This document shows, piece after piece, positions 23,912 through 42,581 of a stretch of DNA of 64,000 nucleotides. Both the position numbers and the translations under genes were made by a program. The notes beneath the pieces are model-generated. The model was given only the letters and a program-made list of their open reading frames with translations, did no database searches and was not told the origin of the DNA. Each line of letters starts with the position of its first letter. Within the stretch, counting starts at the first letter, position 1. The DNA is from Pseudomonas sp. Irchel 3E20 (GTDB lineage Bacteria > Pseudomonadota > Gammaproteobacteria > Pseudomonadales > Pseudomonadaceae), in contig NZ_FYEE01000001.1 in assembly GCF_900187645.1 (NCBI RefSeq), positions 620,001 to 684,000 of the forward strand, read 5' to 3'.

Positions 23912-24050
23912 CCATCGCGAGCAGGCTCGCTCCCACCTAGGAAAGATGAAAATCCCATCCACACCACCGCTCAATTGTGGGAGCGGGCGCTGCCCGCGAT
24001 GGAGCCAATACAGCCACGGCATTACCGCCAACCCGGCCCACTCCCACAGG
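23912..24050. repeat. Cluster of REP units
   Basis: ATCGCGAGCAGGCTCGCTCC (from 23914), TTGTGGGAGCGGGCGCTGCC (from 23975), and a degraded unit ending CCACTCCCACAGG (24050) lie between the ECF sigma gene and mgsA. Confidence 0.8.
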
Positions 24051-24071
24051 GCAGGCGTGGTGCCCGGCGCC

Positions 24072-24536
24072 TCAGGTGCGCTGTTGCAGGTACGCCGGGT
24101 AATCCGGAACGCGGTAGTCGTGGGCCTGGTCCATCAACGGGCTACTGAGCAGGTAGTCGGCGCTGGATTCGTTGCAGGCCACGGGGATGTTCCACACGGC
24201 GGCGACCCGCAGCAGGGCCTTGATGTCCGGGTCGTGGGGCTGGGGCTCGAAGGGGTCCCAGAAGAAGATGAGCATGTCTACCCGTTGCTCGGCGATGCGC
24301 GCGCCCAGTTGTTGGTCGCCGCCTAGGGGGCCGCTAATCATGCTTTCCACGGGCAGGTCCAGGTGCTTGCTCAGCAGCAGGCCGGTGGTGCCGGTGGCCA
24401 CCAGTTCATGGCGCGCCAGGCGTTCGCGTTGGCGCTGCGCCCAGTCGAGCAAAAACACCTTGCAGTGGTCGTGGGCCACCAGGGCGATGCGCTTGCGCGC
24501 GGCCAGGGTGGCGTGGGTGAAACCGATGCCGATCAT
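24072..24536 (-). CDS. mgsA: Methylglyoxal synthase
   Basis: MgsA converts dihydroxyacetone phosphate to methylglyoxal and phosphate, a bypass used when sugar phosphates pile up. The 154-residue protein has ALVAHDHCKVFLLDW, ELVATGTTGLLL (phosphate binding), SGPLGGDQQLGARIAE with the catalytic Asp, and FFWDPFEPQPHDPDIKALLR. GGAGC precedes ATG 24536, and gap ends only 17 bases upstream, so the two genes are almost certainly co-transcribed. Confidence 0.93.
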   Translation of the reverse strand: MIGIGFTHATLAARKRIALVAHDHCKVFLLDWAQRQRERLARHELVATGTTGLLLSKHLDLPVESMISGPLGGDQQLGARIAEQRVDMLIFFWDPFEPQPHDPDIKALLRVAAVWNIPVACNESSADYLLSSPLMDQAHDYRVPDYPAYLQQRT

Positions 24537-24553
24537 AGGGTGCAGCTCCCGGC

Positions 24554-25555
24554 CTATTCGGCGTGGCACAGCGCCAGGCAGTTATCGAGCATGCGGTTGG
24601 AGAAGCCCCATTCGTTGTCATACCAGGCCAGTACCTTGAGCAGTTTGCCGCTGACCTTGGTGTGGTTGGCGTCGAAGATCGACGACAGCGGGTTGTGGTT
24701 GAAGTCGCTGGAAACCAGCGGCAGGGTGTTGTAGCCCAGCACCTTGGAATGCAGGCTGGCGGCCTGGAACAGGGCGTTGACTTCCTCGCGGCTGGTTTCG
24801 CGCTTGAGCTGCACGGTGAGGTCCACCAGCGACACGTTGATGACCGGCACCCGCACGGCCATGCCGGTGAGTTTGCCCGCCAGCTCCGGCAGCACCAGGC
24901 CCACGGCTTCGGCGGCGCCGGTTTTGCTGGGGATCATGTTCTGGGTGGCGGAGCGGGCGCGGTACGGGTCGCTGTGGTAGACGTCGGTGAGGTTCTGGTC
25001 GTTGGTGTAGGCGTGGATGGTGGTCATCAGGCCGCTTTCGATGCCCAGTTCGCGGTGCAGCACCTGGGCCACCGGGGCCAGGCAGTTGGTGGTGCAGGAG
25101 GCGCTGGAGATGATCTGGTGCGATTGGCGCAGGATGTCGTGGTTGACCCCGTACACCACCGTGGCATCGGCGCCCTTGGCCGGGGCCGAGATAATCACTT
25201 TGCGCGCGCCGGCGCTAAGATGGGCGGCCGCCTTGGCGCGGTCGGTGAACAGCCCGGTGCACTCGAACACCACGTCGATTTTCTCGGCGGCCCAGGGCAG
25301 GTTGGCCGGGTCGCGGATGGCGCTGACGGCGATGCGGTCGCCGTTGACGGTGAGGCTTTCCTGGTCGTGGGCAACTTCGGCATCGAAGGTGCCGTGGACG
25401 GTGTCGTACTTGAGCAGGTGCGCGTTGATAGCGCTGTCTCCCAGATCGTTGATGGCGACGATCTGCAGGTCTTGGCGATAACCTTGGGTATACAGTGCGC
25501 GCAGGACGTTGCGGCCGATGCGGCCAAAACCGTTGATGGCGATGCGTAAAGTCAT
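24554..25555 (-). CDS. gap: Glyceraldehyde-3-phosphate dehydrogenase, type I
   Basis: This enzyme oxidises and phosphorylates glyceraldehyde-3-phosphate, here receiving the product of the Entner-Doudoroff aldolase. It has 333 residues. N-terminal [14 protein letters not shown] is the NAD-binding motif, and [12 protein letters not shown] holds the catalytic Cys154. [13 protein letters not shown] lies near the end. Start 25555 (AGGTG upstream) replaces a spurious longer frame. The gene is divergent from edd across two HexR-type operators, as in P. putida and P. aeruginosa gap-1. Confidence 0.96.
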
Positions 25556-25581
25556 GGGAAGGGCACCTGCTCTGAAATTTG

Positions 25582-25596
25582 TTGTTGGAATTACAA
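25582..25596. promoter_or_regulatory. HexR operator, gap side
   Basis: TTGT-TGGAATT-ACAA fits the published Pseudomonas HexR site TTGT-N7/8-ACAA exactly. It lies 27-41 bases upstream of the gap start codon. Confidence 0.8.
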
Positions 25597-25643
25597 GATT
25601 ATTCGCAAAAAAATAGAAAACAAGCCTTTTTAGTGGCAATATT

Positions 25644-25658
25644 TTGTTTTATCTACAA
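25644..25658. promoter_or_regulatory. HexR operator, edd side
   Basis: TTGT-TTTATCT-ACAA is a second exact TTGT-N7-ACAA site, 62 bases right of the first, in the gap/edd divergent promoter region. Confidence 0.8.
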
Positions 25659-25779
25659 CGAGTGACCTGAATCAACTGGTCCCAATGGTCAACCAATGCC
25701 GCGCCCGGCCACGCCGCGCGGTGTTATTGCCCAGCATAGACACACAGGTCGCCACATCCGTTAGCCTGGAGTTCTACAC

Positions 25780-27606
25780 ATGCATCCCCGCGTTCTTGAG
25801 GTCACCGAACGGCTTATCGCCCGCAGTCGCGCCACTCGCCAGGCTTACCTGGCCCTGATCCGCGGTGCCGCCAGCGACGGGCCGGTGCGCGGCAAGCTGC
25901 AATGCGCGAACTTCGCCCACGGCGTGGCCGGTTGCGGCACCGAGGACAAAAACAGCCTGCGCCTGATGAACGCCGCCAACGTGGCCATCGTGTCGTCTTA
26001 TAACGACATGCTCTCGGCCCACCAGCCCTACGAAACCTTTCCCCAGCAGATCAAGCAGGCCCTGCGCGAGATCGGTTCGGTGGGCCAGTTCGCCGGCGGC
26101 ACGCCCGCCATGTGCGACGGCGTGACCCAGGGCGAGCCGGGCATGGAACTGAGCCTGCTCAGCCGCGAAGTGATCGCGTTGTCCACCGCTGTGGCGCTGT
26201 CCCACAACATGTTCGATGCGGCACTGATGCTGGGCATCTGCGACAAGATCGTGCCGGGCCTGATGATCGGTGCTCTGCGCTTTGGCCACTTGCCGACGAT
26301 TTTCGTCCCCGGCGGGCCGATGGTTTCGGGCATTTCCAACAAGGAAAAAGCCGACGTACGCCAACGCTACGCCGAGGGCAAGGCCAGCCGCGAAGAGCTG
26401 CTGGAGTCGGAGATGAAGTCCTACCACAGCCCCGGCACCTGCACCTTCTACGGCACCGCCAACACCAACCAGTTGCTGATGGAAGTGATGGGCCTGCACC
26501 TGCCCGGCGCGTCCTTTATCAACCCCAACACGCCGCTGCGCGATGCCCTGACCCGCGAGGCGGCGCACCAGGTGACGCGCCTGACCCGGCAGAACGGCCA
26601 GTTCCTGCCCATTGGCGAAATCGTCGATGAGCGCTCGTTGGTCAATTCCATCGTCGCCCTGCACGCCACCGGCGGCTCCACCAACCACACCCTGCACATG
26701 CCGGCCATCGCCATGGCGGCGGGCATCCAGTTGACCTGGCAGGACATGGCCGACCTCTCCGAAGTGGTGCCGACCCTGTCCCACGTCTACCCCAACGGCA
26801 AGGCCGACATTAACCACTTCCAGGCCGCGGGCGGCATGTCGTTCCTGATCCGCGAACTGCTCGGCGCCGGCCTGCTCCACGAAAACGTCAACACCGTGAT
26901 GGGCCATGGCCTGAGCCGCTACACCCTGGAACCCTTCCTCGACAACGGCGAACTGGTGTGGCGCGAAGGCCCGTTGGCCAGCCTCGACGAACACATCCTG
27001 CGCCCCGTGGCCCGTGCGTTCTCCCCCGAGGGCGGCTTGCGGGTGATGGAAGGCAACCTCGGCCGTGGCGTGATGAAAGTCTCGGCCGTGGCCCTGGAAC
27101 ACCAAGTGGTCGAAGCCCCGGCCGTGGTGTTTCAGGACCAGCAGGACCTGGCCGACGCCTTCAAGGCCGGGTTGCTGGAGAAAGACTTCGTCGCGGTGAT
27201 GCGCTTCCAGGGCCCGCGCTCCAACGGTATGCCGGAGCTGCACAAAATGACGCCGTTCCTGGGTGTGTTGCAGGACCGTGGCTTCAAGGTGGCGCTGGTG
27301 ACCGACGGGCGCATGTCCGGTGCCTCGGGGAAAATCCCCGCGGCCATCCACGTCAGCCCCGAAGCTCAGGTGGGTGGGGCGCTGGCCCGGGTGCGCGACG
27401 GCGACATCATCCGCGTCGATGGCCAACTCGGCACCCTGGAGCTGAAGGTCGATGCCGCCGAGTTTGCCGCCCGCGAACCGGCCACCGGCCTGTTGGGCAA
27501 CAACGTGGGCAGCGGCCGCGAACTTTTTGCCTTTATGCGCCAGGCGTTCAGCTCGGCGGAGCAGGGCGCCAGCACCTTCACCTCGGCCCTGGAGCGCCTT
27601 GAATGA
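25780..27606 (+). CDS. edd: 6-Phosphogluconate dehydratase
   Basis: Edd dehydrates 6-phosphogluconate to KDPG, the first committed Entner-Doudoroff step. The 608-residue protein belongs to the IlvD/Edd family with iron-sulphur cysteines in [28 protein letters not shown] and [26 protein letters not shown] and [21 protein letters not shown] are also typical. Its product acts on 6-phosphogluconate delivered by zwf-pgl further right; HexR, which releases DNA when it binds KDPG, controls it. The stop overlaps glk (ATGA). Confidence 0.96.
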
Positions 27607-28556
27607 AGTGCGCGTTGGTCGGTGATATCGGCGGCACCAACGCGCGTTTCGCCCTGTGGCAGGACGGCCAACTGGCCTCGGTGCAGGTGCTGGCCACGGC
27701 AGATTTCTTGAGCCCTGAAGCGGCCATCGGCGCCTACCTGCACAGCCTCGGCCTGGCCCCCGGCAGCCTCGGCGCCGTGTGCCTGGCAGTGGCCGGGCCG
27801 GTGGGCGGCGATGAGTTTCGCTTCACCAACAACCACTGGCGCCTGAGCCGCCGGGCGTTCTGCGACACCTTGCAGGTGGCGCAACTGCTGCTGGTCAATG
27901 ACTTTTCGGCGATGGCCCTGGGCATGACCCGCTTGCAGCCCGAAGACTGCCGCGTGGTCTGCCCCGGTACGCCCGAAGCGCTGCGCCCGGCGGTGGTGAT
28001 CGGCCCCGGCACCGGCCTGGGGGTGGGCACCTTGCTCGACCTGGGCGGCGGGCGCTGGGCGGCGCTGCCGGGAGAGGGCGGGCATGTCGACCTGCCATTG
28101 AGCAGCGTGCGCGAGACGCGCCTGTGGCAGCACATCCACGAACAAATCGGCCACGTCAGCGCCGAGACCGCGTTGAGTGGCAGCGGCTTGCCCCGGGTGT
28201 ACCGGGCGATCTGCGCCGTGGACGGCCACGTCCCGCAGTTCGAGACCCCCGAAGCGGTCACCGCCGCGGCCCTGGCCGGCGACCCGGTGGCCCTGCAAAC
28301 CCTCGAACAATTCTGCTGCTGGCTCGGCCGCGTGGCGGGCAACAACGTGCTCACCAGCGGCGCGCGCGGCGGGGTGTACATCGTCGGCGGCGTGATCCCG
28401 CGCTTTGCCGAGTTCTTCCTGCGCAGCGGCTTTGCCCGTTGCTTCGCCGACAAAGGCTGCATGAGCGACTATTTCACCGGCATCCCGGTATGGCTGGTGA
28501 CCGCGCCCTACCCGGGGTTGATGGGCGCGGGTGTGGCGTTGCAACAAACGGTGTAG
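27603..28556 (+). CDS. glk: Glucokinase
   Basis: Glk phosphorylates cytoplasmic glucose imported by GtsABCD. The 317-residue bacterial-type glucokinase has the ATP motif [14 protein letters not shown] at its N-terminus, [12 protein letters not shown] with the catalytic Asp near residue 100, and [15 protein letters not shown]. The start ATG overlaps the edd stop by four bases, giving translational coupling. A REP pair follows. Confidence 0.94.
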
Positions 28557-28558
28557 GC

Positions 28559-28660
28559 GTGGAGCGAGCCGGCTCGCGATGGCCGTTTGTCAGTCGATAG
28601 GGTCGGTGGCTGAACCACCGCTATCGCGGGCAAGCGGAGTGCGGCTCGGCCCGCTCCAAC
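28559..28660. repeat. REP palindrome pair between glk and gltR
   Basis: GTGGAGCGAGCCGGCTCGCG and CTATCGCGGGCAAGCGGAGTGCGGCTCGGCCCGCTCC are degenerate opposed units with an extra insertion in the right arm. Confidence 0.7.
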
Positions 28661-28669
28661 AGCGTTGGC

Positions 28670-28683
28670 AATAACAATAAGAA
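28670..28683 (+). promoter_or_regulatory. A-rich Hfq/Crc-type leader motif before gltR
   Basis: AATAACAATAAGAA is a run of AAN triplets directly before the AAGGA ribosome site of gltR. Such AAnAAnAA stretches are the targets of Hfq/Crc catabolite repression in Pseudomonas. Confidence 0.55.
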
Positions 28684-28693
28684 GGACCACTCA

Positions 28694-29425
28694 GTGACCC
28701 TCATCAACAAATCCATCCTGCTGGTCGATGACGACCAGGAAATCCGCGAACTGCTCGACACCTACCTGACCCGCGCCGGGTTCCAGGTGCGCACCACGGC
28801 GGACGGTGCCGGGTTTCGCCAGGCCTTGAACGAGGCCAGTTGCGACCTGGTGATCCTCGACGTGATGCTGCCCGACGAAGACGGTTTCAGCCTGTGCCGC
28901 TGGGTACGCCAGCACCCGCGCCAGGCCCAGGTGCCGATCATCATGCTCACCGCCAGTTCCGACGAAGCCGACCGGGTGATCGGCCTGGAGCTGGGCGCCG
29001 ACGACTACCTGGGCAAACCCTTCAGCCCCCGCGAGTTGCAGGCGCGGATCAAGGCCCTGCTGCGCCGCGCCCAGTTCGGCCAGGAACGCCCCGGCGGCGA
29101 GGTGCTGCGCTTCGACGACTGGCGCCTGGACATGGTCAGCCATCGCCTGTTTCACGCCGACGGCGAAGAAGTGCTGCTCTCCGGCGCCGACTTCGCCCTG
29201 CTCAAGCTGTTTCTCGACCACCCGCAGCAGATCCTCGACCGCGACACCATCGGCAATGCCACCCGGGGCCGCGAGCTGATGCCCCTGGACCGCATCGTCG
29301 ACATGGCCGTCAGCCGCTTGCGCCAGCGCCTGCGCGACACTGACAAGCCGCCCCGGCTGATCCGCACCGTGCGCGGCAGCGGCTACCAATTGGCGGCTAA
29401 CGTGGTGCCCGGCAATGGCCTCTGA
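28694..29425 (+). CDS. gltR: Response regulator of glucose/ketogluconate response, GltR
   Basis: A 243-residue OmpR-family regulator. Receiver residues 1-120 contain the acidic pair VDDDQE, phospho-acceptor Asp56 in VILDVMLPDEDGF, and Lys near 107 (LGKPFSPREL). A winged-helix DNA-binding domain runs from about 145-240 (IVDMAVSRLRQRL, IRTVRGSGYQL). It starts with GTG at 28694 after AAGGA. With GtrS it controls glucose transport genes. Its stop overlaps the gtrS start by 11 bases. Confidence 0.92.
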   Translation: MTLINKSILLVDDDQEIRELLDTYLTRAGFQVRTTADGAGFRQALNEASCDLVILDVMLPDEDGFSLCRWVRQHPRQAQVPIIMLTASSDEADRVIGLELGADDYLGKPFSPRELQARIKALLRRAQFGQERPGGEVLRFDDWRLDMVSHRLFHADGEEVLLSGADFALLKLFLDHPQQILDRDTIGNATRGRELMPLDRIVDMAVSRLRQRLRDTDKPPRLIRTVRGSGYQLAANVVPGNGL

Positions 29426-30884
29426 GGGGGTGGCCCGCTTGGCCAGGCGCCTGCCGGTGCCGCGTTCGCTGCTGGGGCGCATGCTCCTGCTGACCCTGCT
29501 GGCGGTGCTGTTCGCCCAGGGGTTGTCGAGTGTGATCTGGGTGTCGCAACTGCGCGCCACCCAGCTCGAAGGCCTGGTCACCAGCGCCCGCAGCCTGGCC
29601 CATTCGATGACCGCCAGCGTCAGCTATTTCCGCTCGTTGCCGGTGGCCTACCGACCGTTGGTGCTGGACCAGTTGCGCAGCATGGGTGGCACGCGGTTTG
29701 TCGTGACCCTCAACGACAAACCCTTGGACATGCAGGTGCTGCCCGCCACGCCGCGCAAGCGCGCAGTGCTTGCGGCAGTGGACGCGGTGCTGCGCCAATC
29801 CCTGGGCAACGACACCGATATGTCCGTGCAATTCGTCAGCCCCAACGACCTGCGTATTTTCAACGGTGGCCTCAAGCTCGATGAATTGCCGCGCTCCTGG
29901 GCCCACTACGCGCTGACCCTGGAACCGGTGAACCCGCCGGTGCTGGTGACGCAGATCCAGTTGGCACCGGGGGAGTGGCTGTACATCGCCTCTTTGCTGC
30001 CCGAGCCCTACACCAGCCTCGAAGAACAGGGCCTGCCGTCCCAGCAGGTGTGGTTCATCCTGCTCACCAGCGGTTTTTTGCTGTTGTTCATCGGCCTGCT
30101 GGTGCACTGGCAGAGCCGCCCCCTCAAGCGCCTGGCGCGCACCGCGCGGGACATGTCCCTGGGCGCCGAAGTGGAACCGGTGGTGGAGGGCGGTGGCAGC
30201 GAGGTGGTGGAGGTCAGCCGCGCTTTCAATGCGATGCGCGAACGCATCAGCCGCTACCTGACCGAACGCAGCCAGTTGTTCAGCGCCATTTCCCATGACC
30301 TGCGCACCCCCATCACACGCCTGCGCCTGCGGGTGGAGCTGCTCGAAGACGAGCAACTGCAAGCCAAGTTCGGCCGCGACCTGGATGAGTTGGAGCTTTT
30401 GGTCAAGGGCGCCTTGCAGTGCGTCAAGGACACCGACATCCACGAAAACATCGAGCCGGTGGACCTCAACCAAGTGCTCGACTGCCTGGTCGAGCCCTAC
30501 CTGGCGCCCACCGGCAATGGCCGCGTGACCCAGCAGGGGCGGGCGGCGGCGCCGTATCCGGGCAAACCCCTGGCCCTCAAGCGCTGCATTGGCAACCTGA
30601 TCGACAACGCCCTCAAGTACGGGCAACGGGCCCACCTGCATATCGATGACGACGACACGGCGTTCATCCTCCACGTTGACGACGAAGGCCCCGGCGTGCC
30701 CCAGCAACGCCTGGAGCAGTGCTTCGAGCCGCACTTTCGCCTGGCCGGCAAGCAGCAGGGTTACGGCCTGGGCCTGGGCATCGCACGCAACATCGCCCAC
30801 AGCCACGGCGGCGAAGTGAGCCTGCAAAACCTGCGTGAAGGCGGTTTGCGCGTGACCCTGCATTTGCCGCGCAGCACCGAGTAA
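29415..30884 (+). CDS. gtrS: Sensor histidine kinase GtrS
   Basis: The 489-residue inner-membrane kinase pairs with GltR. A first membrane segment (about 22-42), a periplasmic ligand domain (about 43-205) and a second membrane segment (about 210-228) are followed by HAMP. The dimerisation helix has His294 in AISHDLRTPITRL, and the ATPase part has NLIDNALKYG, DEGPGVP and YGLGLGIARNI. In P. aeruginosa GtrS senses 2-ketogluconate or 6-phosphogluconate. No strong ribosome site; translation probably coupled to gltR. Confidence 0.92.
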   Translation: MASEGVARLARRLPVPRSLLGRMLLLTLLAVLFAQGLSSVIWVSQLRATQLEGLVTSARSLAHSMTASVSYFRSLPVAYRPLVLDQLRSMGGTRFVVTLNDKPLDMQVLPATPRKRAVLAAVDAVLRQSLGNDTDMSVQFVSPNDLRIFNGGLKLDELPRSWAHYALTLEPVNPPVLVTQIQLAPGEWLYIASLLPEPYTSLEEQGLPSQQVWFILLTSGFLLLFIGLLVHWQSRPLKRLARTARDMSLGAEVEPVVEGGGSEVVEVSRAFNAMRERISRYLTERSQLFSAISHDLRTPITRLRLRVELLEDEQLQAKFGRDLDELELLVKGALQCVKDTDIHENIEPVDLNQVLDCLVEPYLAPTGNGRVTQQGRAAAPYPGKPLALKRCIGNLIDNALKYGQRAHLHIDDDDTAFILHVDDEGPGVPQQRLEQCFEPHFRLAGKQQGYGLGLGIARNIAHSHGGEVSLQNLREGGLRVTLHLPRSTE

Positions 30885-30908
30885 ACCCCCGCTTGCTACG
30901 GGCCGTGT

Positions 30909-30977
30909 GAATGTCACCGTCCCGTGACATTCCCCTGCGCCTTCGTTACCTGCGCCCAACCTGGCGTTGAGTAGACT
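30909..30977 (+). promoter_or_regulatory. Composite promoter copy A (palindrome, conserved box, -10) before the AGE-family gene
   Basis: A perfect palindrome GAATGTCAC-CGTCCC-GTGACATTC (30909-30932) is followed 7 bases later by CCTTCGTTACCTG (30940-30952) and 19 bases later by TAGACT (30972-30977) as a -10 box. The same three elements with the same spacings precede gtsA (32261). No good -35 is present, which suggests activator dependence. GltR is the obvious candidate because it is encoded next door. Confidence 0.65.
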
Positions 30978-30989
30978 TTGCCTCGTCAT

Positions 30990-31000
30990 AACAACAATAA
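30990..31000 (+). promoter_or_regulatory. A-rich Hfq/Crc-type leader motif before the AGE-family gene
   Basis: CATAACAACAATAAAAGG places AAnAAnAAnAA right at the ribosome site, 11 bases before ATG 31011. Confidence 0.55.
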
Positions 31001-31010
31001 AAGGCTCGCC

Positions 31011-32279
31011 ATGACCCTCGATCCGTTGCCGTTCAGCAGTTGGTTGACCGCCCCAGCCCATCAGTCCTGGCTCGCCGCAGAGGGTTTGCGCCTGCTGGAG
31101 TTCGCCCGGGGTTCGCGGCTCGACATCGGCTTCGGCGCCCTCGATGCCCAGGGCCGCTTGGGCGCCGGGAGCCGCCCCGACACCCTGATTACTGCGCGCA
31201 TGACCCACAGTTTTGCCCTGGCCCACCTGCAAGGCATCGGCGGTGCTTGCCAGTACACCAGCCACGGCGTGCAGGCCCTGGCCGGGCCGTTGCGCGATGC
31301 CGAGCACGGCGGTTGGCTGGCCTGCGCCGACCCGCGGCCCGACAACTGCCGCAAGAGCGCGTACCTGCACGCCTTCGTCGCCCTGGCCGCCAGTTCCGCC
31401 CAGGTGGCCGGCCGCCCCGGTGCCCAGGCCCTGCTGGACGAGGCCATCGAGATCATCGAGCGGTATTTCTGGAGCGAGGAGGAGGGCGCCCTGCGCGAAT
31501 CCTTCAACCGCCACTGGAGCGAGGCCGAAGCCTATCGCGGCGCCAACATCAACATGCACGCCACCGAGGCGTTCCTGGCCCTGGCCGACGCTACCGGCGA
31601 CGCACTGTGGCTCACGCGCGCGCTGCGCATCGTTGAGCGGGTGATTCACCAGCACGCGGCGGCCAACGGTTTTATGGTCATCGAGCATTTCGACGGCCAC
31701 TGGCAGCCGCTGCGCGATTACAACCAGGCCAACCCGGCGGACGGTTTTCGCCCCTACGGCACCACGCCCGGCCATGGTTTTGAGTGGGCGCGCCTGCTGC
31801 TGCACCTGGAGGCGGCGCTGCGCAAGGCTACTTTGCCGGCGCCGCCGTGGTTGCTGGAGGATGCGCGGCAATTGTTCGACGCCAATTGCCGCCATGGTTG
31901 GGTGGTCGATGGCGCGCCGGGCATCGTCTACACGCTGGATTGGCACAACCGCCCGCTGATGCGCCAGCGCCTGCACTGGGTGCACTGCGAGGCGATCGCC
32001 GCCGCCAGTGCCCTGATCCAACGCACCGCCGAGCGCCGCTATGAAGACTGGTATCGCCTGTTCTGGGCCTACTGCGAGCAGTACTTGCTGGACCTGCGCG
32101 AGGGCAGTTGGCACCACGAACTCGACCCCAACAATCACCCGGGCGGGGAGATCTGGCCGGGCAAACCTGACCTCTATCACGCCTGGCAAGCGCTGCTGAT
32201 CCCGCGCCTGCCCCTGGCCCCGAGCCTGGCCACGGCCCTGGCCCAACAAGGGCGCGGGGCGAATGTCACGGGGGTGTGA
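31011..32279 (+). CDS. AGE-family sugar epimerase/isomerase
   Basis: A 422-residue alpha/alpha-toroid enzyme of the N-acylglucosamine 2-epimerase superfamily, which includes YihS-type aldose-ketose isomerases and mannose isomerases. Typical segments are ARMTHSFALAHL, FWSEEEGALRESF, NINMHATEAFLALADATGD, RPYGTTPGHGFEWARLL, GIVYTLDWHNRP and HWVHCEAIAAA, with the conserved His and Arg residues of the active site. Position between gtrS and gtsA suggests it interconverts hexoses such as mannose, fructose or glucose after uptake. Substrate is not shown by sequence. I do not recall this gene in the PAO1 locus. Confidence 0.82.
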   Translation: MTLDPLPFSSWLTAPAHQSWLAAEGLRLLEFARGSRLDIGFGALDAQGRLGAGSRPDTLITARMTHSFALAHLQGIGGACQYTSHGVQALAGPLRDAEHGGWLACADPRPDNCRKSAYLHAFVALAASSAQVAGRPGAQALLDEAIEIIERYFWSEEEGALRESFNRHWSEAEAYRGANINMHATEAFLALADATGDALWLTRALRIVERVIHQHAAANGFMVIEHFDGHWQPLRDYNQANPADGFRPYGTTPGHGFEWARLLLHLEAALRKATLPAPPWLLEDARQLFDANCRHGWVVDGAPGIVYTLDWHNRPLMRQRLHWVHCEAIAAASALIQRTAERRYEDWYRLFWAYCEQYLLDLREGSWHHELDPNNHPGGEIWPGKPDLYHAWQALLIPRLPLAPSLATALAQQGRGANVTGV

Positions 32280-32330
32280 CATTTGCCCGTCCCTTCGTTA
32301 CCTGGCACAGGTACAACGCTGTTTAAACTC
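32261..32330 (+). promoter_or_regulatory. Composite promoter copy B (palindrome, conserved box, -10) before gtsA
   Basis: GAATGTCAC-GGGGGT-GTGACATTT (32261-32284), then after 7 bases CCTTCGTTACCTG (32292-32304), then after 19 bases TAAACT as -10 (about 32324-32329). Arrangement and spacing equal copy A at 30909. The palindrome overlaps the last codons of the AGE-family gene, whose end reads through it. Confidence 0.65.
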
Positions 32331-32362
32331 GTTCGCAACGCAAGCAGCAGACTTGCACGCAT

Positions 32363-32374
32363 AACAACAAGAAA
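32363..32374 (+). promoter_or_regulatory. A-rich Hfq/Crc-type leader motif before gtsA
   Basis: CATAACAACAAGAAAGG, almost identical to the leader at 30987-31003, lies just before the gtsA start at 32385. Confidence 0.55.
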
Positions 32375-32384
32375 GGTACTTCAG

Positions 32385-33677
32385 ATGAATGGCATTTCCC
32401 GCCTGGCTACAGTCATTTCCCTCGCCTCGTTGTTCCCCCTCCACGCCCTGGCCGCCGACAGCAAAGGTGCCGTGGAAGTCGTGCATTGGTGGACCTCGGG
32501 GGGCGAAAAAGCCGCGGTCGACGTACTCAAGGCCCAGGTCGAAAAAGACGGCTTCACCTGGAAGGACGGTGCCGTGGCCGGTGGCGGCGGGGCGACGGCC
32601 ATGACCGTGCTCAAGAGCCGCGCAGTGGCCGGCAACCCGCCGGGCGTGGCGCAGATCAAAGGCCCGGACATCCAGGAGTGGGGCAGCACCGGGCTGCTCA
32701 GCACCGAAGCCCTAAAGGGCGTGGCCAAGGCCGAGAACTGGGATGGCCTGCTGGCGCCGCAGGTCTCTGACACCGTCAAGTACGAGGGCGACTACGTGGC
32801 CGTGCCGGTGAACATCCACCGCGTCAACTGGCTGTGGATCAACCCCCAGGTGTTCAAGAAGGCTGGCATCGACAAGGCCCCGACCACCCTGCAAGAGTTC
32901 TACGCCGCCGGCGACAAGCTCAAGGCCGCCGGTTTCATCGCCCTGGCCCATGGTGGCCAACCCTGGCAGGACAGCACCGTGTTTGAAGACGTGGTGCTCT
33001 CGGTGATGGGTGTCGAGGGCTACAAGAAAGCCCTGGTGGACCTGGACCAGAACACCCTGGCCGGGGCGCAGATGACCCAGGCTTTCACCGAGCTGAAAAA
33101 AATCACCGCCTACATGGACCCCAACCGCGCCGGGCGCGACTGGAACATCGCCGCCGCCGACGTCATCAACGGCCGCGCCGGCATGCAGATGATGGGCGAC
33201 TGGGCCAAGAGCGAATGGACCGCGGCGAAGAAAATCGCCGGCCAGGACTACCAGTGCGTGGCCTTCCCGGGCACCGAAAAGGCCTTCACCTACAACATCG
33301 ATTCGTTGGCGGTATTCAAGCTCAAGGCCGATCGCACCGGCGACATCGCCGCCCAGCAGGACCTGGCCAAGGTCGCACTGGGCAAGGACTTCCAGAAGAT
33401 TTTCAGCATCAACAAAGGCTCGATCCCGGTGCGTAACGACATGCTCAACGACATGGCGGCCCAGGGTTTCGATAGCTGCGCCCAGACCTCGGCCAAGGAC
33501 TTCCTCGCCGACGCCCAGAGCGGCGGTTTGCAACCGAGCATGGCCCACAACATGGCCACCACCCTGGCCGTGCAAGGCGCGATCTTCGATGTGGTGACCA
33601 ACTTCATGAACGACAAGGACGCCGACCCGGCCAAGGCCAGCGCCCAACTCGCCTCGGCGGTCAAAGCCGCGCAGTAG
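32385..33677 (+). CDS. gtsA: Glucose/mannose ABC transporter substrate-binding protein
   Basis: GtsA captures glucose in the periplasm for the GtsBCD importer. The 430-residue family-1 binding protein has a signal peptide (about 1-24, ending LHALAADSK), [18 protein letters not shown] at the mature N-terminus, and the [16 protein letters not shown] and [15 protein letters not shown] ligand-site regions. Start 32385 gives a proper signal peptide; an upstream in-frame ATG at 32283 does not. Confidence 0.93.
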
Positions 33678-33704
33678 CGCGCTTTCCGGGCGAGCGCGAG
33701 CCTT

Positions 33705-33798
33705 TGTGGGAGCGGGCCTGCCCGCGATGAGGCCGGTACAGCCACCGCATCTCTTTATGACAGGACTGCCGCTATCTCGGGGGAGCCCGCTCCCACAG
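33705..33798. repeat. REP palindrome pair between gtsA and gtsB
   Basis: TGTGGGAGCGGGCCTGCCCGCGATGAG and GCTATCTCGGGGGAGCCCGCTCCCACAGG face each other. Such hairpins often protect the upstream message, which would favour a high level of the binding protein over the membrane parts. Confidence 0.85.
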
Positions 33799-33857
33799 GG
33801 GCGCCCGGCCCAAGGGGCGCGGCTGCCCCAACATTCACCTTTGTACGGACTACTGCG

Positions 33858-34766
33858 ATGAGCTCTGTGGCGGTTTTCAACAAGGCGTCACCCTTGGACG
33901 CCTTGCAACGCTGGCTGCCGAAACTGGTGCTGGCGCCCAGCATGGTGATCGTGCTGGTGGGGTTTTACGGTTACATCCTCTGGACCTTCGTGCTGTCGTT
34001 CACCAACTCCAGCTTCATGCCCAGCTACAAGTGGGTCGGCCTGCAACAGTACGCACGGCTGCTGGACAACGACCGCTGGTGGGTAGCGAGCAAGAACCTG
34101 GCGTTGTTCGGCGGCATGTTCATCGGCATCAGCCTGGTGCTGGGGGTGTTGCTGGCGGTACTGCTGGACCAGCGCATCCGCAAGGAAGGCTTTATCCGCA
34201 CCGTGTACCTGTACCCCATGGCGCTGTCGATGATCGTCACCGGCACCGCGTGGAAGTGGCTGCTCAACCCCGGCCTGGGCCTGGACAAGATGCTGCGCGA
34301 CTGGGGCTGGGAAGGCTTTCGCCTGGACTGGCTGGTAGACCAGGACCGCGTCGTCTACTGCTTGGTGATCGCCGCCGTGTGGCAAGCCTCGGGCTTTGTC
34401 ATGGCGATGTTCCTGGCGGGGTTGCGCGGTGTCGACCAGTCGATCATCCGCGCCGCCCAGGTGGACGGCGCGAGCCTGCCCACTATCTACCTGCGTATCG
34501 TGCTGCCGAGCCTGCGCCCGGTGTTTTTCAGCGCCTTCATGATCCTCGCCCACATCGCGATCAAGAGTTTTGACCTGGTGGCCGCCATGACGGCGGGCGG
34601 GCCGGGCTACTCCTCGGACCTGCCGGCGATGTTCATGTATTCCTTCACCTTCAGCCGCGGGCAGATGGGCATCGGGTCGGCCAGCGCCATGCTGATGCTC
34701 GGCGCGGTGCTGACGATTCTGGTGCCGTACCTGTACTCCGAGTTGCGAGGTAAACGCCATGACTGA
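33858..34766 (+). CDS. gtsB: Glucose ABC transporter permease 1
   Basis: A 302-residue MalF-type permease with six predicted membrane helices. The cytoplasmic EAA loop reads IIRAAQVDGASLPTIYLRIVLPSLRP near residues 195-220. It overlaps gtsC by eight bases. Only a weak ribosome site precedes ATG 33858. Confidence 0.93.
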   Translation: MSSVAVFNKASPLDALQRWLPKLVLAPSMVIVLVGFYGYILWTFVLSFTNSSFMPSYKWVGLQQYARLLDNDRWWVASKNLALFGGMFIGISLVLGVLLAVLLDQRIRKEGFIRTVYLYPMALSMIVTGTAWKWLLNPGLGLDKMLRDWGWEGFRLDWLVDQDRVVYCLVIAAVWQASGFVMAMFLAGLRGVDQSIIRAAQVDGASLPTIYLRIVLPSLRPVFFSAFMILAHIAIKSFDLVAAMTAGGPGYSSDLPAMFMYSFTFSRGQMGIGSASAMLMLGAVLTILVPYLYSELRGKRHD

Positions 34767-35595
34767 CCAACCACGCTTGAGCGCCAGCCGCGTGGCAATC
34801 TACGCCACCCTGCTGCTGGCGGCGGCGGTGTACCTGGTACCGCTGGTGGTGATGCTGCTCACCAGTTTCAAGACCCCCGAAGACATCCGCACCGGCAACC
34901 TGCTGAGCTGGCCCCAGGTGATCGACGGCATCGGTTGGATCAAGGCCTGGGACGCAGTGGGTGGCTACTTTTGGAACTCGGTGAAAATCACCGTGCCGGC
35001 GGTGCTGATTTCCACCTTCCTCGGCGCGATGAACGGCTACGTGCTGTCGATGTGGCGCTTTCGCGGCTCGCAATTGTTCTTCGGCCTGCTGTTGTTCGGC
35101 TGCTTCCTGCCGTTCCAGACCGTGCTGCTGCCCGCGTCCTTCACCCTGGGCAAGCTGGGGCTGGCCAACACCACCACCGGCCTGGTGCTGGTGCATGTGG
35201 TCTATGGCCTGGCCTTCACCACGCTGTTTTTCCGCAACTACTACGTGAGCATTCCCGATGCCCTGGTCAAGGCCGCGCGCCTGGACGGGGCGGGGTTCTT
35301 CACGATTTTCGGCAAGATCCTGCTGCCGATGTCGATCCCCATCGTGATGGTCTGCCTGATCTGGCAGTTCACCCAGATATGGAACGACTTTCTGTTCGGC
35401 GTGGTGTTCGCCAGTGGCGACGCGCAACCGATCACCGTGGCCCTCAACAACCTGGTCAACACCAGCACCGGGGCCAAGGAATACAACGTTGATATGGCAG
35501 CGGCGATGATCGCCGGGCTGCCGACACTGTTGGTCTACATATTCGCTGGCAAGTATTTCCTGCGTGGGCTGACGTCCGGCGCGGTCAAGGGGTAG
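34759..35595 (+). CDS. gtsC: Glucose ABC transporter permease 2
   Basis: A 278-residue MalG-type permease with six membrane helices and an EAA loop (ALVKAARLDGAGFFTIFGKILLPMSIP in pieces, about 170-195). It overlaps gtsB and is followed three bases later by gtsD. Confidence 0.93.
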   Translation: MTDQPRLSASRVAIYATLLLAAAVYLVPLVVMLLTSFKTPEDIRTGNLLSWPQVIDGIGWIKAWDAVGGYFWNSVKITVPAVLISTFLGAMNGYVLSMWRFRGSQLFFGLLLFGCFLPFQTVLLPASFTLGKLGLANTTTGLVLVHVVYGLAFTTLFFRNYYVSIPDALVKAARLDGAGFFTIFGKILLPMSIPIVMVCLIWQFTQIWNDFLFGVVFASGDAQPITVALNNLVNTSTGAKEYNVDMAAAMIAGLPTLLVYIFAGKYFLRGLTSGAVKG

Positions 35596-35598
35596 CAC

Positions 35599-36750
35599 AT
35601 GGCAACGCTCGAATTACGTAACGTCAACAAAACCTACGGCGCCGGGTTGCCGGACACCCTCAAGAACATCGAACTGAAGATCGAGGACGGGGAGTTCCTG
35701 ATCCTGGTCGGCCCTTCCGGGTGCGGTAAATCCACCCTGATGAACTGCATCGCGGGGCTGGAAACCATCAGCGGCGGCGCTATCCTGGTGGACGATGCCG
35801 ACATCAGCGGCATGAGCCCCAAGGACCGGGACATCGCCATGGTGTTCCAGTCCTATGCGCTGTACCCGACCATGACCGTGCGCGACAACATCGCCTTTGG
35901 CCTGAAGATCCGCAAAATGCCCACGGCGCAAATTGACGAAGAAGTGGCGCGGGTGGCCAAGCTGCTGCAGATCGAACACCTGCTGGGGCGCAAGCCCGGC
36001 CAGCTCTCCGGCGGCCAGCAGCAGCGCGTGGCCATGGGCCGGGCCCTGGCGCGCCGGCCCAAGATCTATTTGTTCGACGAACCGCTGTCCAACCTCGACG
36101 CCAAGCTGCGGGTCGAGATGCGCACCGAAATGAAACTGATGCACCAGCGCCTCAAGACCACCACCGTCTACGTCACCCACGACCAGATCGAGGCCATGAC
36201 CCTGGGCGACAAAGTGGCGGTAATGAAGGACGGCATCATCCAGCAGTTCGGCACGCCCAAAGAGATCTACAACGACCCGGCCAACCTGTTCGTGGCCAGT
36301 TTTATCGGCTCGCCGCCCATGAACTTCATCCCCCTGCGCCTGCACCGCCAGGAGGGCCGCCTGGTGGCATTGCTCGACAGCGGCCAGGCGCGTTGCGTGC
36401 TGGCGTTGGGCACAGAGGATATGGCGTTGGCGGACCGCGAAGTGATCCTTGGCATGCGCCCGGAGCAGATTGCCTTGGCGAGCGGTGACGCCAATGGCTT
36501 GCCCAGCATCCGCGCCGAAGTCCAGGTCACCGAGCCCACGGGGCCGGACACCCTGGTGTTCGTCGAGCTCAACCAGACCAAGGTCTGCTGCCGCCTCGCG
36601 CCCGACCTCGCGCCCCAGGTGGGCGAGACCCTGACCCTGCAACTGGACCCGGCCAAGGTGCTGCTGTTCGACGCCAAGACCGGCGAACGCCTGGGCATCG
36701 CCCCCAGCGCAACCCGCAAGGCGAATGTGGCGCAGTTCAAGAGCCGGTGA
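35599..36750 (+). CDS. gtsD: Glucose ABC transporter ATP-binding protein
   Basis: A 383-residue MalK/UgpC-type ATPase. Walker [10 protein letters not shown] (about 37-45), Q-loop [10 protein letters not shown], signature [17 protein letters not shown], Walker [13 protein letters not shown] and H-loop [13 protein letters not shown] are followed by a C-terminal OB-fold (TOBE) regulatory domain from about 240. It energises GtsBC. Confidence 0.95.
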
Positions 36751-36792
36751 GGGGCGGGCGCAGCCGCAGCCACCCCAACCGCAAGCAATTCC

Positions 36793-36803
36793 AATAACAA
36801 GAA
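36793..36803 (+). promoter_or_regulatory. A-rich Hfq/Crc-type leader motif before oprB
   Basis: AATAACAAGAA precedes the ribosome site GAGGATGTAGGG of oprB. Confidence 0.5.
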
Positions 36804-36816
36804 CGAGGATGTAGGG

Positions 36817-38175
36817 ATGAAAAACAACACCACCAACGCTCGCTTTGCCGGCCGTGTTTCGGCATTGGCGGCGATGATGCTGGTCGCCAGTGCGCAAGCG
36901 GCCGAGGGCGCCGAGGCGTTCAGCGCCGAGTCGCCGTGGATGACTGGCGACTGGGGCGGCGAGCGCACGCGGTTGATCGAGCAGGGTTATGACTTCACCC
37001 TCGACTACGTGGGCGAGGTCGGTTCCAACCTCAGTGGCGGCTACAACGACGACACCACGGCGCGCTATAGCCACCAGTTCGGCCTGGGGGCCAAGCTGGA
37101 CCTGGAGAAAATTTTCGGCTGGAAAGACGCCGAGTTCAAACTGGCGATCACCGAGCGCAGCGGGCGCAACATCTCCAACGACCGCATCGGCGACCCTCGC
37201 GCCGGCACGTTCAGTTCGTCCCAGGAAGTCTGGGGCCGTGGCCAGACCTGGCGCCTGACCCAGTTGTGGATCAAGCAGAAGTACTTCGACGGCAAGCTCG
37301 ACGTGAAGGCCGGCTATTTCGGCGAAGGCGAAGACTTCAACACCTTCCCCTGCGACTTCCAGAACCTGGCGTTCTGCGGCTCGCAAGTGGGTAACTGGGT
37401 CGGTGGCATCTGGTACAACTGGCCGGTCAGCCAAGCGGCGATCCGCGTCAAGTACAACCTCACCCCCGAGCTCTACGCGCAAATCGGCGCCTACAACCAG
37501 AACCCCTCGCAACTGGAAACCGGCAACGGCTTCAAGCTCAGCGGCAGCGGCACCAAGGGCACCATCCTGCCGGTGGAATTGGTCTGGTCGCCTAAGGTCG
37601 ATGGCCTGCCGGGCGAGTACCGCGTGGGCTACTACAAAAGCACTGCCAAGGCTGATGACGTGTTGAAAGACGCCAACGGCCAGTACGCCGCCGTCAGTGG
37701 CGACGCGTATCGCAGCCACAGCAGCAAGTCCGGTTATTGGTTCGTGGCCCAGCAGCAACTGACCGACCATCACGGCGACAAGAGCCGCGGCCTGCACATC
37801 GCGGCCAACGCCACGTTCCACGACAAGGACACCAACACCGTCGACAACTACCAGCAACTGATGCTGACCTACAAAGGCCCGTTCAACGCCCGGCCCAAGG
37901 ACGACGTGGGCATCGGCATCGCGCGCATCCACGTCAACGAAGATGTGCAGAAAAACCGCAAGCTGATTAACGCCGGCAACGGGTTCAACGACTACGACCA
38001 GGCCGGGTTCCTGCCCATCCAGGACACCGAATACAACGCCGAGATCAACTACGGCTTCCATGTCACCAACTGGCTGACCGTGCGCCCCAACCTGCAATAC
38101 GTGAAGCACCCCGGCGGCGTGGACAAAGTGGATGACGCATTGGTGGCCGGGTTGAAAATTCAGTCGGTGTTCTGA
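36817..38175 (+). CDS. oprB: Carbohydrate-selective porin OprB
   Basis: OprB is the glucose-inducible outer-membrane channel. The 452-residue precursor has a signal peptide (about 1-28, ending ASAQA), the family start ESPWMTGDWGGERTRL, and a C-terminal barrel strand ending GLKIQSVF. AGYFGEGEDFNTFPCDFQNLAFCG is a conserved loop with two cysteines. It follows gtsD by 66 bases. Confidence 0.95.
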   Translation: MKNNTTNARFAGRVSALAAMMLVASAQAAEGAEAFSAESPWMTGDWGGERTRLIEQGYDFTLDYVGEVGSNLSGGYNDDTTARYSHQFGLGAKLDLEKIFGWKDAEFKLAITERSGRNISNDRIGDPRAGTFSSSQEVWGRGQTWRLTQLWIKQKYFDGKLDVKAGYFGEGEDFNTFPCDFQNLAFCGSQVGNWVGGIWYNWPVSQAAIRVKYNLTPELYAQIGAYNQNPSQLETGNGFKLSGSGTKGTILPVELVWSPKVDGLPGEYRVGYYKSTAKADDVLKDANGQYAAVSGDAYRSHSSKSGYWFVAQQQLTDHHGDKSRGLHIAANATFHDKDTNTVDNYQQLMLTYKGPFNARPKDDVGIGIARIHVNEDVQKNRKLINAGNGFNDYDQAGFLPIQDTEYNAEINYGFHVTNWLTVRPNLQYVKHPGGVDKVDDALVAGLKIQSVF

Positions 38176-38222
38176 CAACGGCTGCGCTAAGCTCCGCTGC
38201 CCCAGCACCTCACCTGGGGACC

Positions 38223-38299
38223 CTGTGGGAGTGGGCTCGCCCGCGATGAGGCCGGTACAGGGTTGTACCATCGCCATCGCGGGCGGGCCCGTTCCCACC
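38223..38299. repeat. REP palindrome pair between oprB and the mutarotase gene
   Basis: CTGTGGGAGTGGGCTCGCCCGCGATGAG and CCATCGCGGGCGGGCCCGTTCCCACC are opposed REP units. Confidence 0.85.
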
Positions 38300-38332
38300 C
38301 AGGGCAGCCATCGTTTTTCAGGACTGCGGTAC

Positions 38333-39202
38333 ATGCACAAGCACCCGCTACAACGCTTTTTCCGATCCCTGCGCGAACGCCCTACCTTCGGGTGGGAGCG
38401 CTATCAACGGCGCGATGTGCTGGTGATCGACCACCCACGCTGCCAAGCGGTGTTCAGCCGCCAGGGCGCGCAACTCCTGCATTTCCAGCCCACCGGGCAA
38501 AAGCCCTGGCTGTGGTGCGCGGCGAAGTGGCCGCAGGTGGGTGCCATCCGCGGTGGGGTGCCGGTGTGCTGGCCCTGGTACGGCCGCCATCCTAGCGAAA
38601 ACGCCTGGCCGTCCCACGGGTGGGCGCGGCTGATCGACTGGAAGCTGTTGGCCAGCCACGCTGGCGTCGACGGTGTGCGCTTGCACTGGCGCTTGCAACT
38701 GTGCGACTGGCAAGTGGACCTGCACGCCCACCTGGGCGAACGCATGGACCTGCGCCTGAGCACCGAGCACCAAGACAGCGAACCCTGCCATTTGAGCCAG
38801 GCCTTGCATGCCTACTGGCGTGTTGGCGACGCTGCCGAGACAGCGCTGTCTGGGCTGGAGGACGCCGAAGGCTACGACCCACTCAACCGCACCACGTACC
38901 GGCATAGCGGCGAGTTGAGCGTGGTGGGCGGCTGCCAACGGGTGTTCCGCCACGACGGCGAGTTGCAGCTCAAGGACCGCGCCTGGCAGCGCGAACTGTG
39001 CATCGACACCGGGCACGCGGCGGACACGGTGGTTTGGCACCCGGGTACTCGGCCGCTGTTGGGCGTGAGCTGGAATGAGGTGGCGCAGTTCGTCTGCGTC
39101 GAAGCGGCCAGCGGCGGCACCACTCGCCAGAGCCTGGCACCGGGAGAAACGGCGCACTTGAGTTTGCAGGCGCGGGCGGGGGGCGATTGCAGGGGGGTGT
39201 GA
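38333..39202 (+). CDS. D-hexose-6-phosphate mutarotase (YeaD-like aldose epimerase)
   Basis: A 289-residue beta-sandwich protein of the galactose-mutarotase superfamily. It speeds interconversion of alpha and beta glucose-6-phosphate, which helps Zwf (beta-specific). The family pattern includes FSRQGAQLLHFQPTG, IRGGVPVCWPWYG, SHGWARLIDW and HAYWRVGDA. It ends the gts-oprB cluster. Start 38333 is chosen because the preceding in-frame part is REP DNA. Confidence 0.88.
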   Translation: MHKHPLQRFFRSLRERPTFGWERYQRRDVLVIDHPRCQAVFSRQGAQLLHFQPTGQKPWLWCAAKWPQVGAIRGGVPVCWPWYGRHPSENAWPSHGWARLIDWKLLASHAGVDGVRLHWRLQLCDWQVDLHAHLGERMDLRLSTEHQDSEPCHLSQALHAYWRVGDAAETALSGLEDAEGYDPLNRTTYRHSGELSVVGGCQRVFRHDGELQLKDRAWQRELCIDTGHAADTVVWHPGTRPLLGVSWNEVAQFVCVEAASGGTTRQSLAPGETAHLSLQARAGGDCRGV

Positions 39203-39211
39203 GGCTAGGTT

Positions 39212-39240
39212 CTGGTGGGAGCGAGCCTGCTCGCGATAGC
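39212..39240. repeat. Single REP unit after the mutarotase gene
   Basis: TTCTGGTGGGAGCGAGCCTGCTCGCGAT is one REP unit between the convergent mutarotase and hexR genes. Confidence 0.8.
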
Positions 39241-39324
39241 GGTGCGCCCGCCCCGCCCGCCGTTAGCCGAGTACCTCTGTCGTAGAGGGTTGCGCGATAA
39301 AGGCTTCGATCCCACCGCAGTTTT

Positions 39325-40194
39325 TCAGTCCAGATCATCCCCCACCGGATAACGGCTGGCATTGAGGCTTTCTTTGATCTTGCGCAGGTGTGGCTGAAAA
39401 TCCACGCCACGGCGCAGGGTCATGCCGGTGGCCAGCACGTCGAGCACGGTGAGCTGGATGATGCGCGAGGTCATGGGCATATAGATGTCGGTGTCTTCGG
39501 GCAGCGGGATGTTCAGGCTCAGGGTGCTGGCCTTGGCCAGAGGCGAGCCGGCGGCGGTCAGGCCCAGCACCGAAGCGCCGTTTTCCCGGGCGATGCGCGC
39601 CACTTCCACCAGTTCGCGGGTGCGCCCGGTGTAGGAAATAATCACGAACAGCTCCCCCGTGTGGGCCACCGAGGCAATCATGCGCTGCATCAGCACGTCG
39701 GCGTGGGCGGTGACGGCCAGGTTGAAGCGGAAGAACTTGTGCTGCGCGTCCAGGGCCACCGGGGCCGAGGCGCCAAGGCCGAAGAAGTGGATCTGGCGGG
39801 CCTGGATCAGCAGGTCGACAGCGCGGCTGACCAGGTTCGGGTCCAGGGCCTGGCAGGCACTGTCCAGCGAGGCGATGGCGCTGCCGAAGATCTTTTGGGT
39901 GTAGGCCTCGGGGTTGTCGTCGGCCTCCACCGCGCGGCTGACATAGGCCGCGCCGCTGGCCAGGCTCTGGGCCAGTTGCAGCTTGAGCTCCGGGTAGCCG
40001 CTGACGCCGAACGAGCGGCAGAAACGGTTGACCGTTGGCTCGCTGACCGAAGCGGCCTGGGCGAGGGCGGCAATGCTGAAACGGGTGGCCTGCTGGGGGT
40101 TGAGCAGGATCACTTCGGCGACCTTGCGTTCAGCTTTGTTCAGTTCTTCGAGGCGTTTCTGGATCTGTTCCAGGAGATTTCGCACGCGGTCCAT
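39325..40194 (-). CDS. hexR: HexR, RpiR-family repressor of sugar catabolism
   Basis: HexR represses zwf-pgl-eda, edd-glk and gap until KDPG binds. The 289-residue protein has an N-terminal helix-turn-helix ([23 protein letters not shown], about 38-60) and a SIS sugar-phosphate domain (about 125-250), with [19 protein letters not shown] and [22 protein letters not shown] in pieces. It is divergent from zwf, sharing a 200-base promoter region with a HexR-type operator. Confidence 0.94.
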
Positions 40195-40310
40195 TCAGGT
40201 TTCCTAGGTCGGCAATGCAAATGGAAGTCGGACTTATCCGGGCTTCGGCGGTGGCCTATCCTACTGATGGCTCCGGCCATCCACCACTGGGATTCTGTAT
40301 TCTGAAAAAA

Positions 40311-40329
40311 TGTTGTGGTTATTACTACA
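40311..40329. promoter_or_regulatory. HexR operator of zwf
   Basis: TGTTGT-GGTTATT-ACTACA is symmetric and resembles the two exact TTGT-N7-ACAA sites at gap/edd, with one arm changed (ACTA for ACAA). It lies 66-84 bases upstream of zwf. Confidence 0.65.
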
Positions 40330-40394
40330 TTTTTCCTTGAGCGATGCCTTGAAAAAAGGTATTTGTAGCTTAACTTGATAAAAGAACCAACATC

Positions 40395-42564: not shown

Positions 42565-42581
42565 GCCAAGGATCAGCCGCG

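Follow-up and report, generated by a model that had tools for sequence, protein, structure and literature searches.

Two adjacent genes of a Pseudomonas glucose cluster, an AGE-superfamily gene and gtsA (gltB), are each preceded by a copy of the same composite element. Each copy is, with a probability of roughly 0.85, an operator of the response regulator GltR joined to a sigma-70 promoter that lacks a recognisable -35, is activated by phosphorylated GltR, and responds to a glucose signal. The window, i.e., the 64,000-nucleotide stretch of the Pseudomonas sp. Irchel 3E20 genome that was analyzed, covers a glucose cluster consisting of gap, edd, glk, gltR, gtrS, the AGE-family gene, gtsABCD, and further genes. 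The cluster continues with an oprB-type porin gene, an epimerase-like gene, hexR, zwf, and pgl. These gene names are our own reading of the open reading frames, except for those tested by Pfam or NCBIfam.

The paired element reported in the initial annotation is confirmed, and its interpretation appears right in the main, since the evidence supports a GltR operator of a known kind. Three points are new: a fixed form of the operator with three half-sites, the prediction that a D-mannose isomerase is among the GltR targets, and a start site of gltB that probably needs correcting. We hold with moderate confidence the joint reading that GltR uses a three-half-site operator, that both the published gltB start and the repressor model resting on it are about 36 bases off, and that the glucose sensor commands D-mannose isomerase in many Pseudomonas species and so opens mannose use.

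Paired elements in the glucose cluster

Direct reading of the window places a palindrome GAATGTCAC-N6-GTGACATT at 30909-30931 and again at 32261-32283, followed by a box CCTTCGTTACCTG at 30940-30952 and 32292-32304. The composite element thus stands before both the AGE gene and gtsA, as had been described. The -10 hexamer, TAGACT in the first copy and TAAACT in the second, lies exactly 19 bases 3' of the box in both, and the same leader sequence, CATAACAACAA, was read after both promoters (Table 1). The separation of the copies, given earlier as about 1350 bases, measures 1352. The spacing between palindrome and box had been put at exactly 7 bases; the gap is indeed fixed, being the same in both copies, but it is 8 bases for the palindrome as it was written and becomes 7 only if the palindrome is taken with a 24th base. 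The AGE gene ends within the second palindrome, stop codon included.

Table 1. Promoter elements and genes of the locus, in window coordinates
Feature	Position	Strand	Basis
gltR, OmpR/PhoB-type response regulator	28694..29425	+	ORF; Pfam Response_reg + Trans_reg_C
gtrS, sensor histidine kinase	29415..30884	+	ORF; Pfam HAMP, HisKA, HATPase_c
Operator 1, left predicted GltR half-site GTCAC	30913..30917	.	sequence; AGE-promoter conservation
Operator 1, right predicted GltR half-site GTGAC	30924..30928	.	sequence; core of published GTNACAAA
Operator 1, third half-site GTTAC (box), about -39 to -35	30945..30949	.	sequence; orthologous position in footprint II
Predicted -10 TAGACT of the mannose isomerase promoter; predicted start near 30984	30972..30977	+	sequence, conservation
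Isomerase leader CATAACAACAA holding Crc/Hfq CA motif AANAANAA	30987..30997	+	sequence
AGE-superfamily gene, D-mannose isomerase	31011..32279	+	NCBIfam NF051846.1; Pfam PF07221
Operator 2, left half-site GTCAC, within the isomerase gene 3' end	32265..32269	.	sequence
Operator 2, right half-site GTGAC, spanning the isomerase stop TGA (32277-32279)	32276..32280	.	sequence
Operator 2, third half-site GTTAC	32297..32301	.	sequence; conservation
Predicted -10 TAAACT of the gtsA promoter; predicted start near 32336	32324..32329	+	sequence, conservation
gtsA leader stem GCAAG-N7-CTTGC near the predicted mRNA 5' end	32340..32356	+	conservation
gtsA leader CATAACAACAA holding Crc/Hfq CA motif	32360..32370	+	sequence; conservation
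gtsA (gltB), glucose ABC transporter binding protein	32385..33677	+	Pfam SBP_bac_1; relatives in named Pseudomonas genomes

A chance origin of the paired element is ruled out by shuffles, reversed controls, and a genome pattern scan. A scan of the window that tolerated up to three mismatches gave four matches (the two sites on both strands) against 0.09 expected, and none of 100 shuffled windows gave four. The genome scan for the palindrome that the initial annotation had proposed was run over the whole 5.3-Mb genome, where TGTCAC-N6-GTGACA matched these two sites only; the reversed control matched nowhere. The three-part pattern GTNAC-N6-GTGAC-N16-GTTAC was found twice in the genome and not at all in the control, and the two matches are the window copies because both copies fit the pattern. 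By itself, the box is no rarity: allowing one mismatch, TTCGTTACCTG occurred 56 times in the genome versus 54 in the control. An exact TTCGTTACCTG was present in the genome solely at the two element copies.

Architecture, conservation and descent of the proposed operator

Both halves of the palindrome and the box have the common core GTNAC. Each promoter carries three such cores at fixed spacing, and they are the cores of the consensus GTNACAAA obtained by ChIP-seq for P. aeruginosa GltR, whose strongest peak was gltB according to the available parts of the reports (PMC7927077; PMC4081096). The core-to-core distances of 11 and 21 bases correspond to roughly one and two turns of the helix. Because GTNAC reads the same on both strands, the palindrome can equally be read as an 11-base direct repeat. 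Direct repeats of about 11 bases are usual for regulators of the OmpR/PhoB family. The full 8-mer GTNACAAA has no exact match in the two operators of the window, whose flanks, compared with GTNACAAA, are ATT and, for the box on the minus strand, of the GAA type; on that strand the box reads GTAACGAA. Among 149 gtsA promoters the box is TTTGTTAC, i.e., GTAACAAA, an exact match to the consensus, in 12, and TTCGTTAC in the remaining 137.

The available text on P. aeruginosa gltB describes GltR footprints from -44 to -13 (I) and from -11 to +15 (II), and places the site GTGAAAAACCGGA, which in the reference strain reads GTGACAAACCCGGA, at -22 to -10 (PMC7927077; PMC4081096). GTGACAAACCCGGA followed by GTTAC within 5-25 bases was found in one of 398 family genomes (G435), which is close to P. 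aeruginosa on a basis that includes the published 14-base site. The gtsA promoter of G435 reads GTAAC-N6-GTGAC-N16-GTTAC, TAGACT, a GCAAG/CTTGC stem, AATAACAAGAAG, and ATG. The footprints were mapped onto this orthologous promoter, which contains the published 14-base site, in place of that of PAO1. By our own arithmetic, accurate to within one base, GTAAC-N6-GTGAC lies under footprint I, and footprint II has GTTAC at its center. The palindrome and the box are best read together as one three-half-site operator that is predicted to bind GltR in this species.

The proposed operator resembles two known systems without being identical to either. PAO1 gltB shares the orthologous gene and regulator, and the orthologous promoter has the same half-sites, spacing, TAGACT hexamer, and A-rich leader. 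In contrast, the available published description consists of an 8-base consensus and two footprints rather than a three-half-site unit of fixed spacing, the published start falls inside the third half-site by our arithmetic, and the gtrS-gtsA interval holds no mannose isomerase gene and hence no second operator copy. Activator promoters of the PhoB/OmpR family are similar in that half-sites lie about 11 bases apart, with the proximal one over the -35 region and only a -10 element. They differ in that the half-site core here is self-complementary, which makes its orientation ambiguous, and in that the third half-site here is 21 bases away, with no recognisable fourth. The literature search, in addition to the sources cited elsewhere, drew on the available parts of PMC5902321, PMC5429807, PMC9007349, PMC3166926, and PMC6235884; it found no DAP-seq study, no mapped gltB start position among the entries listed, and no published binding or expression data on any isomerase promoter.

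The claim that the elements are under selection is well supported by their conservation before both genes and by the co-occurrence with gltR described below. The least biased set consists of 80 named loci for which the GtsA protein was the sole query (the 80 best of 578), and all 80 gtsA promoters in it have the three cores with spacing 16. Altogether 149 gtsA promoters were read, comprising these 80, 26 found by promoter similarity, 41 from genomes without the exact pattern, one found by the pattern (L167), and the window. The operator was exact in 108, had one mismatch in 35, and had a spacing of 15 in 6; none failed. Before the AGE gene it was present in 107 of 108 promoters (58, 18, and 31 from the same sets, and the window), of which 106 were exact and one had spacing 15 (L069). 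AGE hits too near a locus end (e.g., L051) were left out of the 108. The search behind the 26 promoters matched 29 of 57 genomes; L120 and L121 duplicate the genomes of L125 and L155 and were left out. Some species are represented both among the named loci and among the other genomes, and the counts correspond to 144 distinct upstream sequences for gtsA and 105 for AGE.

At the level of whole genomes, the exact pattern occurred in 230 of 298 sampled genomes of the genus; the reversed-pattern control matched in 34, once in each by our count by eye. A gtsA search (E 1e-60) split the 68 genomes without the exact pattern into 44 that gave a hit and 24 that gave none. All 41 gtsA promoters that were read among the 44 proved to be near-variants; those left out were G310, at a contig edge, and G075 and G013, whose hits are 33% identical. 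Promoter similarity also matched 17 of 25 genomes of the sister genus, and all 17 promoters have three cores with spacing 16. These 17 and the 26 above are not independent proof of conservation because they were found by promoter similarity.

At L106 the isomerase operator is missing and a REP-like inverted repeat lies upstream (about positions 1-220), a natural case of operator loss. At P. putida-type loci (L124-L157), 34 gtsA promoters have G(A/C)TGAC as their right half-site, and the third half-site of the isomerase operators is GTGAC in the rows shown.

How did the two copies arise? A recent local duplication or gene conversion could keep the pair alike, and the likeness would then say little about function. 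The window pair has 41 of 66 aligned positions in common, which ranks it ninth of 106 pairs and is the point in favor of such a history. However, over the 106 loci paired copies share a median of 37 of the 66 positions, compared with 48 among gtsA orthologues and 42 among AGE orthologues, so the copies are nearer to their orthologues than to each other. Moreover, the mean identity of true pairs (36.66) is no closer than that of shuffled pairs (36.49, sd 0.18), 342 of 2000 shuffles being as high. Recent duplication or homogenization is contradicted by this comparison, and we regard it as extremely unlikely. Paired copies are no more alike than random pairs, and thus the word "duplicated" in the initial annotation holds at most in the sense of an old similarity and fails as a claim of recent copying. 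An ancient duplication of the operator is plausible, and the copies may also have been assembled independently on a geometry imposed by GltR.

Regulator and mode of regulation

The gltR gene lies in the same cluster as the element, and its product is 82% identical to the G435 orthologue. At a strict threshold (1e-90), neither gltR nor the exact pattern was found in any of the 24 genomes without gtsA, the search being confined to the exact pattern and to that threshold; 21 of them reach 90% completeness with no more than 5% contamination, and 3 fall outside that class. With the same query and threshold gltR was found in 20 of 20 genomes tested that have the operator, 16 in exact form and 4 as a near-variant. 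Since gltR, gtsA, and the element usually form one cluster, much of this co-occurrence reflects linkage and possibly the loss of whole clusters. In 11 genomes (G017, G032, G073, G111, G122, G161, G186, G189, G209, G218, and G303), gltR lies on the same contig but 107-135 kb from the operators, and both operators are kept. The isomerase gene was seen in two of the distant-gltR genomes (L109 and L110) and is deduced from operator spacing in the rest. At L088, other genes lie upstream of the isomerase gene, and the locus gave no gltR or gtrS hit. Of 26 rows compared, only L182 departs from the stretch VDMAVSRLRQRL of the GltR DNA-binding domain, by a single change, the other 25 being identical. 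The assignment of GltR as the regulator, suggested in the initial annotation, is well supported by the published consensus and footprints, the conservation of the sites, the co-occurrence, and the 11 genomes with a distant gltR.

An alternative is that a different dimeric regulator uses the palindrome and that the box is no more than a -35 element, with GltR, the product of a nearby gene, as a bystander. In favor of this, the palindrome forms a good inverted repeat, the OmpR family often uses direct repeats, and the genus has other glucose regulators. However, with a self-complementary core an 11-base direct repeat looks palindromic, the published GltR footprints cover both palindrome and box, and the exact pattern is missing from all 24 genomes that gave no gltR hit. 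Published sites of the other regulators were also looked for by inspection, and the HexR operator (TTGT-N7/8-ACAA), the PtxS operator (TGAAACCGGTTTCA), and the GntR site were all absent from both operators. A bystander role of GltR is accordingly very unlikely.

A TANNNT hexamer lies 21-23 bases after the operator in all 149 gtsA promoters and 21-22 bases after it in 107 of 108 AGE promoters; the script tried nine offsets, and a few of these matches could be due to chance. A consensus scan found no sigma-70 -35/-10 pair at either element, its sole match lying inside the isomerase gene; on this ground neither element was taken as a sigma-70 promoter with a -35. By our arithmetic the published gltB +1 falls within GTTAC and TAGACT implies a start about 36 bases further downstream; the published start is probably misplaced by that distance. 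Taken as printed, it places the operator over the start region, a poor fit to an activator and a point against the preferred explanation. If the start is moved to the place implied by TANNNT, the half-sites come to lie at about -71 to -35, which fits an activator.

Published accounts disagree about what GltR does once bound, and a misplaced start would be a simple reason for the disagreement. One P. aeruginosa paper, in its available parts, places the operator over the start region and argues for repression; unphosphorylated GltR would block both promoters and leave the DNA on phosphorylation. The consensus in that paper, tgGTTTTTc, fits a variant form of the gltB site on the other strand. However, the strain of that study is described as having sequence changes in this very site. 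A later study, as far as its available text goes, reports that GltR binds more strongly once phosphorylated and that the site is needed for induction: glucose induces gltB about 64.5-fold, this induction is lost without gtrS-gltR, and removing GTGACAAA abolishes it (PMC7927077; PMC4081096). The conserved TANNNT likewise implies a start about 36 bases downstream of the printed position, which puts the operator upstream, in an activator-like position. Repression by GltR is therefore unlikely, and activation by phosphorylated GltR is preferred.

The activation model runs as follows. Glucose-bound GtsA (GltB) would activate GtrS, which would phosphorylate GltR. Phosphorylated GltR would bind the three GTNAC half-sites, whose spacings of 11 and 21 bases would put them on the same side of the helix. 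The half-site nearest the start would cover the -35 region, so that bound GltR stands in for a -35 element and aids RNA polymerase at the TANNNT -10. The same signal would turn on the gtsABCD-oprB glucose uptake genes and, through its own operator copy, the D-mannose isomerase gene. Finally, CATAACAACAA in the mRNA leaders would let Hfq and Crc restrain translation under better carbon sources. What was observed is the sequence itself, its conservation, the co-occurrence with gltR, and the agreement with the P. aeruginosa footprints in print; that GltR binds in this species, that the third half-site is an activator site, that glucose induces the isomerase gene, and that Crc controls both leaders are inferred. 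The fixed-spacing operator model can be used for genome scans.

The isomerase gene and the leaders

The AGE gene is assigned as a D-mannose isomerase by NCBIfam, as it matches the equivalog NF051846.1 with 689.1 bits against a cut-off of 600. The nearest solved structures to its product are YihS-type sugar isomerases. The gene is a new predicted GltR target; in other words, the paired element predicts one more enzyme in the regulon of a known two-component system. If this is true, a glucose signal would open mannose use in many Pseudomonas species. An AGE hit was missing at 40 of the loci scanned, which include P. syringae-type and P. aeruginosa-like loci and the P. putida-type L142, L156, and L157; the count covers the loci themselves, a few of them short. 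At these loci the operator lies between gtrS and gtsA where both genes were seen. They keep the gtsA operator, and therefore the gtsA copy, which bears the leader stem, is likely the older one. Identity to relatives at the other loci is 62-73% for the isomerase protein, compared with 71-92% for GtsA at the same loci, and the isomerase seems to evolve faster than its neighbor.

The matching leaders noted in the initial annotation are present, but their likeness was ruled out as evidence of duplication since CATAACAACAA recurs elsewhere in the genome. It occurs seven times, and by our own reading five of the seven, including these two, stand before plausible gene starts. Both leaders of the window contain AACAACAA near the translation start, in agreement with the CA motif AANAANAA of Crc/Hfq targets, so the matching leader is, by its letters, a separate and fairly common motif of the Crc/Hfq type. 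As in the known CA-motif leaders (PMC3003667), CATAACAACAA directly precedes the ribosome-binding site. The available part of that source lists the gtsA orthologues PA3190 and PP_1015 as predicted Crc candidates but does not name the isomerase among them. A P. aeruginosa Crc study lists gltB with the values 0.2, 2.92, and 8.1, which are taken here as RNA, protein, and a derived measure, the available part of its table being without column heads.

AANAANAA is present in all 149 gtsA leaders and in 86 of 108 AGE leaders (58 of 58 at named loci, 16 of 18 in relatives, 11 of 31 of P. putida type, and the window). Its absence from 20 of 31 P. putida-type isomerase leaders, a further difference from the known Crc/Hfq leaders, means that operator and leader motif are separable. 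The fixed stem pattern GCAAG-N7-CTTGC is found in 147 of 149 gtsA leaders versus 0 of 108 AGE leaders. Although the letters of the stem are conserved, the folding energy of the gtsA leader is not unusual (z 0.32), and an unusually stable fold was rejected. The stem perhaps protects the mRNA. A search for known structured RNAs at gathering scores gave no match in 24000-42600. Three further occurrences of CATAACAACAA in this genome (G000:C15:70220, C23:45726, and C28:74327) each precede a gene; by our own reading these encode a tricarboxylate-binding protein, a formaldehyde dehydrogenase-like enzyme, and an HU-like protein, and they are possible Crc targets.
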